From an uncultured Eubacteriales bacterium (GTDB lineage Bacteria; Bacillota; Clostridia; Lachnospirales; Lachnospiraceae): DNA of 35,210 nucleotides. Below the pieces are notes generated by a model that was not told where the DNA came from, searched no databases, and saw nothing but the letters and a program-made list of their open reading frames with translations. Below are positions 15,882 to 33,611 of this stretch, piece by piece. The position numbers and the translations under genes are program-made. Where the stretch lies: contig CASEML010000076.1 of assembly GCA_949289145.1 (NCBI GenBank), positions 1 through 35,210 on the forward strand, given 5' to 3'. The number at the start of each line of letters is the position of its first letter. Positions within the stretch are counted from its first letter, which is position 1.

Positions 15882-16592
15882 ATGAAATATATTTTAGATA
15901 CTCATACCCATACCGTAGCAAGCGGACATGCATATAGTACGGTAGATGAAATGATTAACGCGGCAGCAGAGAAGACCTTGGAACTTCTGGCAATTACAGA
16001 ACACGCACCGAAAATGCCCGGAAGCTGTCAGGAAATTTATTTTAGTAATTTAAAAGTACTTCCAAGAGAGAAAGAGGGCATACAGCTGTTGTTTGGCGTA
16101 GAACTGAATATTATGGATTATCAAGGCAATGTTGATTTGCCGGAACGCCTGCTGCAGCAGATGGATATTGTAATTGCAAGTATGCATACTCCATGTGTTC
16201 CTCACGGAACAGTAGAACAAAATATGTCTGCTTTTATAGGAGCGATGAAAAATCCATATGTGAATATCATCGGGCACCCGGATGATGGTAAATATCCGGT
16301 GGATTATGAAGAACTTGTACTTGCAGCAAAGAAGTATCATAAATTATTGGAAGTAAATAATAATTCCCTGATGCCTCATTCTTTCCGAGAAAACGCAAGA
16401 GAAAACGACATTACAATGTTAAAATTCTGTAAAAAGCATCAAGTGCCAGTAGTTGTGGGCAGTGATGCACACCATACGGATTATGTGGGACGCCATGCAG
16501 AAGCATATGAAATTTTCGAAGAAATCGATTTTCCGGAAAGCTTAGTAGCTAATGCAGATAAAGAATTGCTGTTGGCATTTTTAAATAGGTAA
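15882..16592 (+). CDS. PHP-domain phosphatase (YcdX-like)
   Basis: A 236-residue PHP-family metal-dependent hydrolase with the full metal-ligand set. Visible are DTHTHTVASGHAYS (His8, His10, His16), ITEHAPK, GVELNI, SMHTPCVPH, GHPDDGKYP and GSDAHHTDYVGRH. Together these are typical of the trinuclear-zinc YcdX subgroup, which hydrolyses phosphomonoesters. AAAAGGAG lies 8 bases before the ATG. The stop codon TAA at 16590-16592 lies inside a repeat end (GTAACAGTTCGG from 16589), so the last bases of this gene are probably supplied by that element. Confidence 0.92.
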   Translation: MKYILDTHTHTVASGHAYSTVDEMINAAAEKTLELLAITEHAPKMPGSCQEIYFSNLKVLPREKEGIQLLFGVELNIMDYQGNVDLPERLLQQMDIVIASMHTPCVPHGTVEQNMSAFIGAMKNPYVNIIGHPDDGKYPVDYEELVLAAKKYHKLLEVNNNSLMPHSFRENARENDITMLKFCKKHQVPVVVGSDAHHTDYVGRHAEAYEIFEEIDFPESLVANADKELLLAFLNR

Positions 16593-16650
16593 CAGTTCGG
16601 CTTTATTGGTTATGTGCTGTTCTTCGAAACCGATAGGTTTGAAAATTTAC
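16589..16650. repeat. Short, decayed member of the GTAACAGTTC palindromic element family
   Basis: The left end GTAACAGTTCGGC followed by TTTATTGGTTA matches the ends of the pcrA-flanking elements. The downstream CTTCGAAACCGATAGG then resembles their right-end CTTCTAACCAATAAGCC, and the segment closes with GAAAATTTAC. The whole is an imperfect palindrome of about 62 bp lacking the long core hairpin. The first three bases after 16589 supply the stop codon of the PHP gene. Confidence 0.5.
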
Positions 16651-16663
16651 AGTAAACCTTCTA

Positions 16664-18234: not shown

Positions 18235-18321
18235 GTAACAATTCCGCTCATGGTATGTTATACAAGTGCATTTTATGCCAGTATAACGCACTTGTATAAT
18301 ATACCATGGCTGAACTGTTAC
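18235..18321. repeat. 87-bp imperfect palindrome with GTAACA(G/A)TTC ends (third member, different core)
   Basis: The left end GTAACAATTCCGC and the right end GCTGAACTGTTAC are inverted copies of the termini seen in the pcrA-flanking elements. Inside, CATGGTATGTTATACAAGTGC at about 18249-18269 pairs with 18288-18308 with few mismatches. The core sequence is unrelated to GACGCCCCTAGCGG of the other copies. It lies 35 bp upstream of the lrp-like start codon and may carry or disturb that gene's promoter. Confidence 0.75.
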
Positions 18322-19946: not shown

Positions 19947-20087
19947 GTAACAGTTTGCTTTGATGGTTATCAGGACGCCCCTAGCGGATACCCTTCTTCT
20001 TAGAAAGGCAGAACATTTAACAGCCTTTCTAAGAAGAAGGGTATCCGCTAGGGGCTGTTCTTGAAAAATCACAAGCCTAAATGTGAC
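19947..20087. repeat. 141-bp palindromic element, copy A (upstream of pcrA)
   Basis: The core hairpin has perfect 33-bp arms (19977-20009 and 20023-20055) around a 13-base loop AGAACATTTAACA. The flanks form weaker inverted repeats ending in GTAACAGTTTGC on the left and AAGCCTAAATGTGAC on the right. Length, arm layout and loop are the same as in copy B at 22578-22718. No coding capacity is seen. It fills most of the 371-bp aspA-pcrA gap, along with a possible further decayed copy and the pcrA promoter. Confidence 0.88.
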
Positions 20088-20166
20088 TATTTCAGTGGAT
20101 TAGGTTACTGTGTTTCATAAACTCCAAAACGTAAAAGTGTTCTAACCAATACGGCTAAACTGCTAC
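20083..20166. repeat. Possible second, heavily decayed element copy abutting copy A
   Basis: The right part TTCTAACCAATACGGC followed by TAAACTGCTAC (to 20166) clearly matches the right end of copy B (TTCTAACCAATAAGCC, then TGAACTGTTAC). The left part beginning GTGACTATTTCAG is a weak inverted match. This suggests a tandem neighbour sharing the junction with copy A, or a duplicated right end only. Confidence 0.4.
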
Positions 20167-20196
20167 AATTTTATAGAATAATCCTGTAAAACATCA

Positions 20197-20225
20197 TTGC
20201 AATAAGAACGTCTGTTTGATATAAT
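20197..20225 (+). promoter_or_regulatory. pcrA promoter with an embedded LexA-like site
   Basis: TTGCAA (20197-20202) and TATAAT (20220-20225) are 17 bp apart, with an extended TG before the -10. In the spacer, GAACGTCTGTTT (20206-20217) matches the GAAC-N4-GTTC LexA core at seven of eight fixed positions. A repressor bound there would block polymerase, but the LexA reading is tentative. Confidence 0.6.
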
Positions 20226-20292
20226 TATAAAAAAGTTTCAAAAGGATGTTGCTTGCTGTTAACAGCAGGAAAAGCATGATGGAGGAAATAAC

Positions 20293-22497
20293 ATGAGCAT
20301 TTATGATTCATTAAATGATATGCAGAGACAGGCAGTGTTTCAAACGGAAGGTCCGGTTTTAATACTGGCAGGTGCAGGATCGGGAAAGACAAGAGTGCTG
20401 ACACATAGAATTGCATATTTAATAGAAGAAAAAGGGATAAATCCATGGAATATTATGGCAATTACCTTTACCAACAAGGCGGCTTCTGAGATGAGAGAGC
20501 GAGTGGACAATCTGGTAGGATTTGGATCAGAAAGCATCTGGGTCAGTACCTTTCACTCCACTTGTGTCCGGTTTTTACGGCGTTACATTGACCGTTTAGG
20601 TTATGACACTAACTTTTCTATTTACGACACAGATGACCAGAAAAGTGTTATGAAAGAAGTGTGCAAGAAGCTTCAAGTGGACACCAAAATATATAAAGAA
20701 AGAAATCTGCTTTCTGCTATTTCCAAGGCTAAAAACGAAATGATACTTCCAGAAGAATTTGAAGCCAATGCAGGCGGCGATTACGGTTTGAAAAAGGTAG
20801 CGGCAGTTTATCATGAGTATCAAAAACGCTTAAAAAGTAATAATGCACTGGACTTTGATGATTTGCTGGTAAAGACCGTGGAACTGTTACAAAACAATCC
20901 CGATGTGTTAGATTACTATCAGGAGCGGTTTCGTTATATTATGGTGGATGAGTATCAGGATACTAATACCGTACAATTTAAATTTATCAGTCTGCTGGCG
21001 GCAAAATACAGAAATCTTTGTGTGGTAGGCGATGATGATCAGTCCATATATAAGTTTCGCGGAGCTAATATCCGTAATATTTGGGATTTTGAAAAGGTGT
21101 ATCAGGAAGCAATGGTGATTAAACTGGAACAGAACTATCGCTCCACACAAAATATTCTGGATGCTGCCAACAGTGTAATCCGAAATAATTCACAGCGTAA
21201 AGAGAAATCATTGTGGACAGACAACGGAACCGGAGAGAAAATAGATTTTCATCAGTTTGACTCTGCATATGAGGAAGCAGAATACATAACTTATGATATT
21301 TCAAAACGGGTGCGGGAAGGAATTCATCAGTATAATAATTGTGCTATTTTATATAGAACAAATGCCCAGTCCCGTATGTTTGAAGAAAAGTTTGTGGCAT
21401 CTAACATACCCTATAAAATCGTAGGCGGTGTAAATTTTTACGCAAGAAAAGAAATTAAGGATATTTTAGCGTATTTAAAAACCATTGACAACGGAAAAGA
21501 TGAAATTGCAGTAAAGCGTATTATCAATGTTCCAAAGCGGGGAATCGGTGCCGCAAGTCTAGGAAAAGTGGATTATTATGCACAAGAACAGGGAATCAGC
21601 TTCTATGATGCATTAAAAAGAGCAGACGAAGTTCCGGGTCTGGGCAGGGCTGAAGCAAAAATACGCCCGTTTGTGACCATGATACAGGCATACAGAAGCA
21701 AGCTTCCATATATGAAATTAACAGAAATTGTAGAAGAACTAATCGAAGAAACAGGGTATGTGAAGGAACTGGAAGCAGAAGGTACCGATGAGGCAGAAGC
21801 AAGAATTGAAAATATTGATGAATTGCTCAACAAACTTATGGATTATGAAGATAAAGAAGAAAATCCTACTCTGAGCGGATTTTTAGAAGAAGTGGCATTG
21901 GTGGCAGACATAGATAATTTAGAAATGGGCAGTGATTATGTTGTGTTAATGACAATGCACAGTGCGAAAGGGCTGGAATTTCCAAATGTTTATCTGGTGG
22001 GGATGGAGGACGGTGTTTTTCCCAGTTATATGACCATAACTTCAGATGACAAAATGGAAATTGAGGAAGAGCGAAGACTGTGCTATGTGGGAATTACAAG
22101 AGCCATGGAAAAACTTCATATTACATGTGCTAAAATGCGTATGATGCGTGGAGAAACTCAGTACAACAAAATGTCCCGTTTTGTAAGGGAAATTCCTGTA
22201 GAACTTTTTGAAACACAGCCCCAAAAAGAAAAATTTATGCCGGAAGAAAAAGCTTCTGCTTATCAACAGGCAAAAGCGGTATTCCGCACAAAACCGGTTG
22301 CCACAAAACAGTTTACGGTCACAAAGGCAGAATCCTTGGATTATAATGTGGGAGATACTGTTTTGCATAAAACCTTCGGACAAGGCTTGGTTAAGGATAT
22401 CACCGAGGGAGGCAGAGACTACGAAGTAACCGTGGAATTTGGCAAGGTCGGAGTAAAGAAAATGTTTGCTTCCTTTGCTAAACTGCAGAAAATATAA
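20293..22497 (+). CDS. pcrA: ATP-dependent DNA helicase PcrA (UvrD/Rep family)
   Basis: PcrA is a 3'-5' superfamily 1A helicase used in nucleotide excision repair, plasmid rolling-circle replication and removal of RecA or stalled polymerase. The 734 residues show Walker A ILAGAGSGKTRVLTHR (residues ~23-38), TFTNKAASEMRERV, Walker B MVDEYQDTN (~217), VVGDDDQSIYKFRGA, QNYRSTQNI, TMHSAKGLEF and RRLCYVGITRA. The C-terminal Tudor-like tail (GDTVLHKTFGQGLVKDI) contacts RNA polymerase in homologues. TGGAGGA precedes the ATG. The gene is flanked on both sides by the 141-bp palindromic elements. Confidence 0.96.
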   Translation: MSIYDSLNDMQRQAVFQTEGPVLILAGAGSGKTRVLTHRIAYLIEEKGINPWNIMAITFTNKAASEMRERVDNLVGFGSESIWVSTFHSTCVRFLRRYIDRLGYDTNFSIYDTDDQKSVMKEVCKKLQVDTKIYKERNLLSAISKAKNEMILPEEFEANAGGDYGLKKVAAVYHEYQKRLKSNNALDFDDLLVKTVELLQNNPDVLDYYQERFRYIMVDEYQDTNTVQFKFISLLAAKYRNLCVVGDDDQSIYKFRGANIRNIWDFEKVYQEAMVIKLEQNYRSTQNILDAANSVIRNNSQRKEKSLWTDNGTGEKIDFHQFDSAYEEAEYITYDISKRVREGIHQYNNCAILYRTNAQSRMFEEKFVASNIPYKIVGGVNFYARKEIKDILAYLKTIDNGKDEIAVKRIINVPKRGIGAASLGKVDYYAQEQGISFYDALKRADEVPGLGRAEAKIRPFVTMIQAYRSKLPYMKLTEIVEELIEETGYVKELEAEGTDEAEARIENIDELLNKLMDYEDKEENPTLSGFLEEVALVADIDNLEMGSDYVVLMTMHSAKGLEFPNVYLVGMEDGVFPSYMTITSDDKMEIEEERRLCYVGITRAMEKLHITCAKMRMMRGETQYNKMSRFVREIPVELFETQPQKEKFMPEEKASAYQQAKAVFRTKPVATKQFTVTKAESLDYNVGDTVLHKTFGQGLVKDITEGGRDYEVTVEFGKVGVKKMFASFAKLQKI

Positions 22498-22577
22498 TAG
22501 ATATATAAAAATTTTATCACAATTTTGGGATTATTTAAAAATGCCGCTTATATTTGAGAGCATCGAATCAGTGGTGT

Positions 22578-22718
22578 GTATCAGTTCAGCTTTGATGGTG
22601 ATCAGGACGCCCCTAGCGGATACCATTTTTCTCAGAAAGGCAGAACATTTAACAGCCTTTCTGAGAAAAATGGTATCCGCTAGGGGCGTCCTTCTAACCA
22701 ATAAGCCTGAACTGTTAC
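22578..22718. repeat. 141-bp palindromic element, copy B (downstream of pcrA)
   Basis: The core hairpin has perfect 38-bp arms (22604-22641 and 22655-22692) and a 13-base loop with the same AGAACATTTAACA sequence as copy A. The flanks give a near-perfect outer inverted repeat, CAGTTCAG (22582-22589) with CTGAACTG (22707-22714). Short apparent reading frames on both strands are only mirror images of the palindrome. With the promoter at 22748-22776 it accounts for the 339-bp gap between pcrA and the zf-HC2 gene. Confidence 0.9.
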
Positions 22719-22747
22719 AGTGGTGTTTTGTGACATAATGAAACACA

Positions 22748-33597: not shown

Positions 33598-33611
33598 GTA
33601 ACAGTTCAGCT
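33598..33611 (+). repeat. Isolated end of the GTAACAGTTCAGC repeat family
   Basis: GTAACAGTTCAGCT exactly matches the consensus terminus of the palindromic elements elsewhere in the window, but no matching inverted end is visible nearby. It may be a remnant left after loss of an element between pta and DUF177, or a chance match. Confidence 0.4.

Follow-up and report, generated by a model that had tools for sequence, protein, structure and literature searches.

Covarying hairpin repeats with IS66-type ends around pcrA in a Lachnospiraceae genome, possibly recognised as folded DNA

Copies A and B, two hairpin-bearing insertions on either side of the helicase gene pcrA, lie on a 35,210-nucleotide contig of an uncultured Lachnospiraceae bacterium (CASEML010000076.1; this whole stretch is the window). 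They appear to be non-autonomous insertions bounded by IS66-type ends, in other words IS66-type miniature inverted-repeat transposable elements (MITEs), carrying a reduced form of a larger hairpin unit. The hairpins form a family with covarying arms, a conserved core, short flanking feet and inverted pairs, and in the genome of the window IS66-type ends and a target-site duplication accompany them. In the explanation that we prefer, to which we give an even chance, the unit is recognised as folded DNA by a mobilising enzyme. We infer that selection acts on DNA folding, with mobility as the selected function.

The two copies and their immediate parts are as follows.

19947..20166, + strand: copy A, 220 bp, made up of a terminal inverted repeat (TIR1), a GGAC foot, a perfect 33-bp hairpin, a TGTTCTT foot with a degenerate central module, and TIR2
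19977..20055, + strand: hairpin of copy A, arms 19977-20009 and 20023-20055, 33 bp each, 0 mismatches, 13-nt loop
19939..19946, unstranded: left flank of copy A, AATTTATA, an imperfect match to the right flank, AATTTTAT, at 20167-20174
22578..22718, + strand: copy B, GTATCAGTTCAG...CTGAACTGTTAC, 141 bp that form a palindrome throughout, without the central module
22609..22687, + strand: hairpin of copy B, arms 22609-22641 and 22655-22687, 33 bp each, 0 mismatches, 13-nt loop
22570..22577, unstranded: target-site duplication of copy B, AGTGGTGT, repeated at 22719-22726 (8/8)

Copy A starts with GTAACAGTTTGC (from 19947) and ends with CTAAACTGCTAC (to 20166). It is asymmetric: the flank to the left of the 33-bp arms (TIR and GGAC) and the flank to the right (TGTTCTT and onward) are different modules. 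A preliminary description of this DNA had presented A and B as twin 141-bp palindromes, which is right for B and its ends, whereas A measures 220 bp and is perfect only in its 33-bp arms. The perfect hairpins that it reported are borne out for both copies, as is their common 13-nt loop, AGAACATTTAACA. Pairing in copy B continues without a mismatch for 5 bp outward beyond the arms. Copy B folds with z = -14.7 as RNA and -15.2 as DNA, the stretch containing copy A folds with z = -11.1, and in neither case did any shuffle fold equally well.

The arms of A and B differ at three positions (C/A, C/T and T/C), each compensated on the opposite arm. The claim that all changes are compensated holds for this pair but not for the family, because six of the eight aligned copies from the genome of the window (G000) carry one to three one-sided mismatches. 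Compensation nevertheless exceeds random drift, as had been proposed: 11 of 33 pairs are changed on both sides over the eight copies, against 2.9 +/- 1.3 in shuffles (0 of 500 as high) and 0-2 with slid partners. A G-U intermediate is impossible for five of these eleven changes, which are of the transversion type. Two copies, L002 and L004 (L-numbers denote extracted loci), have a loop that, read in the same frame, is reverse-complemented relative to the other G000 copies. Since the left arms of the two are identical, this inversion is probably one event.

A structure model built from the eight G000 hairpins, A and B included (R1), found ten hairpin copies in G000; it scores A at 105.6 bits and B at 105.8, both sequences being part of the model itself. 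Across 116 relatives, R1 gave matches in G000 only. The 258-bp copy L002, whose positions 1-204 are 77% identical to copy A (19947-20150), matched two sites in the genus-mate G003 (E 3.4e-7 and 9.4e-5), where the arms are related and a folded core of ~115 nt replaces the 13-nt loop. Searches with one G003 member and with the partner hairpin of another located further members in G003 and in the genus-mates G004, G001 and G002.

The full unit consists of a GGAC foot, hypervariable paired arms of ~34 bp, the ~115-nt core with conserved internal-loop bases, and a TG foot. It spans ~185 nt, whereas the reduced form spans 79 nt. The feet recur in most of 82 hairpins, position by position in 67, 57, 70 and 71 for GGAC and in 71 and 70 for TG. 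In all eight loci with two core-bearing hairpins less than 400 bp apart, the hairpins are inverted, plus then minus. Such pairs were seen in two genus-mates and two other genera, and many other loci hold one hairpin. Outside the GGAC foot, 17 of the 82 hairpins have runs of at least five G within 55 nt (read inward), compared with 3 of 82 for runs of C.

Arm statistics were taken from an ungapped hairpin finder, which listed 48 hairpins at a score of at least 20. Nine were left out: L073, L133, L139, L011 and L012 (short end-type palindromes, including some reduced members of the family), L009 (three mismatches, but a member of the family), L168 (truncated), and L138 and L141 (core only, arms non-complementary). 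L010 was added after removal of one unpaired base, giving 40 hairpins. Copies in G003 and G004 had been located by matches that mostly span the core. The 40 hairpins show 47 mismatches in 1350 arm bp, and their arms agree at a mean of 96.5% within a copy but at 59.3% between copies (780 pairs); the corresponding values for the 21 hairpins of G003 alone are 97.1% and 60.7%. Arm length varies from 24 to 36 bp across copies, the arms still pairing end to end (no gaps being allowed by the finder).

Covariation is also evident in an alignment of 21 full hairpins from three genomes (A2), in which 97.1% of 1193 cells are paired. Both sides are changed in 48 of 57 pairs (shuffles 33.0; slid partners 16-24), and both-side-changed cells number 309 (shuffles 90.8; slid partners 28-53). 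Meanwhile, 17 of 28 internal-loop columns are invariant, compared with 8 of 68 arm columns, and G003 copies resemble one another more in the core than in the arms (81.2% versus 71.3% in a class of eight, 80.7% versus 73.7% in a class of four). The helices thus vary while unpaired bases stay, a pattern that templating of the arms alone would not give.

The family reaches beyond the genus. A second structure model without any sequence from the window's genome (R2) matched 17 of 295 relatives and 13 of 251 genera; at most eight candidates were scored per genome, so that copy numbers are lower bounds. For the other genera, 42 of 47 R2 rows were aligned, after removal of three reverse-strand duplicates, L239:1538 (arms broken by an insertion, as read by eye) and L252:4590 (no arms). 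These 42 hairpins, from 11 genera, carry GGATYT or TGATTT in 39 cases and RRCTW in 41; their arms are 92.8% Watson-Crick over 1243 ungapped positions, whereas arm identity between genera is 46%. In a collection of genome contigs, the core pattern was present in 13 stretches from two goat-gut metagenome-assembled genomes, RGIG2151 and RGIG1694. Limited searches of phages and plasmids (distant blastn with the L140 and L243 elements) and of viral contigs (two exact core patterns) gave no match. The further copies that the preliminary description had proposed to look for therefore exist in G000, in genus-mates and in other genera.

Pairing can extend past the modelled arm: in G161 (L253-L260) it continues perfectly for 14-22 bp in six of eight hairpins, and in G030 for 17 bp (L241) and 11 bp (L246). 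Two core-bearing hairpins of G004, L138:1501-1605 and L141:1448-1551, seem to combine a left arm of one type with a right arm of another, as though the two cores of a single element had been fused by a deletion.

The ends of the insertions point to IS66. Copy B ends in GTATCAG/GTAACAG (one end mismatched) and copy A in GTAACAG/GTAGCAG, giving a GTAA-type start. Target duplications in G000 are perfect (8/8) for B, L013 and L018 and reach 7/8 for L011. With up to three mismatches, the end pattern occurs 33 times in G000, against none for the reversed-pattern control, and 3, 3, 5 and 4 times in G004, G003, G001 and G002 (controls 0, 1, 0 and 1). With two mismatches it was found across 299 family genomes only in G000 and at one G002 site, and the exact pattern had no match in the collection of genome contigs. 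No GTAACAG end was evident within 70 nt outside the hairpin unit in the other genera inspected.

A putative autonomous relative is a single open reading frame (ORF) element in G004 (L054:1154-2968), which has the same 14-bp ends, GTAACAGTTCAGCC. Its 505-aa product matches PF03050 (DDE_Tnp_IS66) at 76.8 bits (cut-off 23.1) and misses the NCBIfam IS66 equivalog NF033517 (157.9 bits, cut-off 180). The only IS66 gene found in G000 is a fragment that differs from that of L054. This fragment (G000:C170:8985-9161, L024) lies near a contig end, without GTAACAGTTCAG ends. Hence the target duplications and the transposase with matching ends that had been suggested as a check were both found, the transposase being IS66-like and not RAYT.

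If the fold were selected on one RNA strand, G-U should far exceed A-C. The counts of G-T to A-C are 12:23 in the 40 hairpins, 11:17 in A2 (an overlapping set) and 11:24 in the set of 42 from other genera. Reading the opposite strand gives a ratio of about 2 to 1, which is still low against the general expectation for RNA. Without a G-T excess, DNA folding fits better than RNA folding, the yardstick being the usual behaviour of RNA helices. A structured RNA, either a transcribed non-coding RNA or an mRNA 3' element with a selected fold and with loop motifs serving as RNA tertiary motifs, is thus an unlikely explanation, although covarying helices with invariant unpaired bases are the classic pattern of functional RNA and the core recurs across many genera. 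Besides the G-T counts, the opposite orientation in all eight paired loci speaks against it, as one transcript would hold a sense and an antisense hairpin. Nor is any gene arrangement clearly favoured around 36 elements (18 tandem, 8 convergent, 6 divergent and 4 unassigned), and a limited Rfam search of eight loci gave no family at the gathering score. Matches of the microRNA type in the window were below the gathering score and, looking like generic hairpin matches, were rejected.

Two other accounts dispense with selection on the fold. Template switching during replication, or conversion from arm to arm, could by itself keep the arms complementary. Excerpts of PMC8794818 state that template switching predicts multiple compensations and inverted loops, and that in rRNA 61.0% of instantaneous compensations are of the transition type. 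The inverted loop of L002 and L004 is such a predicted mark, arms of differing length still pair end to end, and transversion-type compensations are common: 42 close hairpin pairs yield 145 compensated cells, of which 67 are transition-type and 78 transversion-type. However, the loop inversion may be a single event, one-sided mismatches are transition-rich (35:12) whereas compensated changes are not, and under templated correction the invariant internal loops of the core would be expected to disappear as well, yet they are retained from genus to genus. It leaves the conserved core and feet unexplained, and copies with non-complementary arms remain. Given the conserved unpaired core bases and these few copies, we consider a selected fold more likely than pure templated repair, which we regard as improbable on its own; template switching may contribute alongside, without explaining the invariant core and feet. 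Equally improbable, in our judgement, is a passenger role, in which an ordinary IS66-type MITE carries the hairpin along and the arms are perfect because a few palindromic master copies were recently multiplied. The GTAA ends, the 8-bp duplications, the IS66-like element with identical ends and the duplications around hairpin-less copies all agree with a passenger, but recent copying does not give G003 arms that are ~60% alike between copies yet ~97% complementary, nor does a passenger account for units of other genera around which no GTAACAG end was evident. The question in the preliminary description, whether the structure is selected or the arms are kept alike by templated repair or transposition, was well framed: a conserved-structure family exists, and the alternatives have partial support.

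According to the explanation that we prefer, the mobilising enzyme would recognise the unit as folded DNA, either a single-stranded hairpin or a cruciform, in a manner comparable to TnpA-REP on REP/REPIN elements or TnpA on IS200/IS605 ends. Only copies that fold correctly would be copied onward, and the arms would therefore change by paired substitutions along active lineages. After insertion, a copy would decay through scattered one-sided mutations. By analogy, we hold with moderate confidence that these are REP- or IS200-like mobile DNA read as a folded hairpin.

Several observations weigh against this explanation. The hairpin-less copies L013 and L018 (53-54 bp) have perfect duplications, and IS66-type movement therefore does not need the hairpin. 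Other two-ended G000 elements have weak duplications (L002 2/8, L006 5/8, L012 5/8 and L016 6/8), none was established for any hairpin element outside G000, and the L054 element has none. A scan of 272 sequences (the window and overlapping loci) for general HUH motifs revealed no transposase beside the hairpins, its one frame being probably spurious. Uncompensated cells in the 42 close pairs number 94, not far below the 145 compensated ones. Core-bearing copies with non-complementary arms also exist, namely L252:4590 and, in a comparison of 30 core-bearing hairpins (L160 having a shortened core), L138, L141 and L158, with L144 partly paired. The arm statistics are biased toward paired arms, because pairing is what both R2 and the hairpin finder select. 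Finally, R2 with default filters misses A and B (0 matches in the window); with filters off they score 57.2 and 57.1 bits, but an unrelated perfect 31-bp hairpin scores 40 and a second unrelated palindrome 28, leaving about 15 bits specific to the unit. What ties A and B to the wider unit is mainly the sequence matches and the shared feet.

The gene between the copies and the remaining features of the window are listed below.

20293..22497, + strand: pcrA, 734 aa, TIGR01073 at 956.5 bits (cut-off 911.2), between A and B and not part of either element
18235..18321, unstranded: palindromic MITE of 87 bp with ends GTAACAATTCCG...CTGAACTGTTAC, the same end type as A and B with a different stem
16589..16651, unstranded: truncated copy, a TIR2-type end and the beginning of the central module
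33598..33609, + strand: half-site GTAACAGTTCAG, no partner end seen nearby

The position beside pcrA, which the preliminary description had thought a possible coincidence, looks incidental, since members occur at many other sites. Using ORF positions only, with neighbours unannotated, 32 of 36 placed elements lie between two ORFs of at least 90 aa; L001 and L117 also lie inside an open frame of at least 90 aa. A tie to PcrA function was rejected because members occur elsewhere, mostly between ORFs, and no conserved B site lies beside pcrA in G003. There, the site downstream of pcrA has no orthologous neighbourhood, as the neighbouring gene differs. Upstream of G003 pcrA, an end-like GTAACAGCTCAG remnant, read by eye, occupies the site orthologous to copy A, which could thus be an old insertion that has lost its hairpin in G003. 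Within pcrA, positions 22039-22136 give a sub-threshold match to Rfam n00280 (54.2 bits, gathering score 65.2), described as a C. difficile small RNA within a helicase gene. The 87-bp MITE has flanks TATTTTAT/TATTTTAC that agree at 7/8 positions, and stems like its own occur in L016 (1330-1492), L133 (1324-1383) and L139 (637-696).

Compensation in stems is commonly taken to prove that an RNA is functional, yet here a multi-copy DNA repeat covaries almost perfectly without a G-U preference. Comparing copies inside one genome is therefore a natural way to test whether paired stems evolve through selection on folded DNA, selection on RNA or template switching. Should mobility depend on the fold, a major gut family would harbour a large REP-like system whose enzyme is still to be found. 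Searches of the literature and of Rfam found no description of this structured repeat family, and we know of no REP-like system from Lachnospiraceae. We put it at somewhat short of even that the elements form an undescribed class in this family: bipartite, with two inverted ~185-nt hairpins, sequence-free but strictly Watson-Crick 34-bp arms and a conserved internal-loop core, and moved by an enzyme that reads DNA shape.

Among known systems, the IS66 family shares the GTAA start, the 8-bp duplication and, through L054, a DDE_Tnp_IS66 relative with the same ends; the relatives here are presumably ISBst12-like. To our knowledge, no description of IS66 includes a covarying hairpin unit, and the BOX and RUP repeats of pneumococci have no known sequence relation to the present family. 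In excerpts of PMC11946415, IS66 ends begin with GTAA, the start being given as GTAAGCG against GTAACAG here, and the duplication is 8 bp. BOX and RUP resemble the family as modular or MITE-like, tightly folded repeats, and the text of PMC3049150 mentions neither covariation nor compensation. The CGTC-tagged repeats excerpted in PMC3733652 are likewise tagged palindromes, mostly dimers, with no known transposase, but they have a CGTC tag, a CCA tail and stems of 8-9 bp with 4-5 nt loops, compared with stems of ~34 bp here, and the tag differs in sequence and side from GGAC/TG.

The closest likeness is to REP/REPIN elements (BIMEs) and their TnpA-REP (RAYT) enzymes, in which TnpA-REP acts on a folded single strand (excerpts of PMC8266576 and PMC3733652). 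A scan of the extracted loci for general HUH motifs found no RAYT, and Firmicutes is not among the phyla named for REP-type systems in the excerpts of PMC3733652. The systems share a short conserved foot beside a hairpin, conserved stem mismatches, inverted pairs, a mostly intergenic location and many copies. They differ in the foot, which is GTAG (or GTGG) in REP and GGAC in most of the 82 hairpins here, in hairpin size (20-50 nt versus ~185 nt in the full or 79 nt in the reduced form), and in the large conserved core and nearly sequence-free arms of the present family. By analogy, then, the unit would work most like a REP/REPIN system, yet with a foot and a size of its own.

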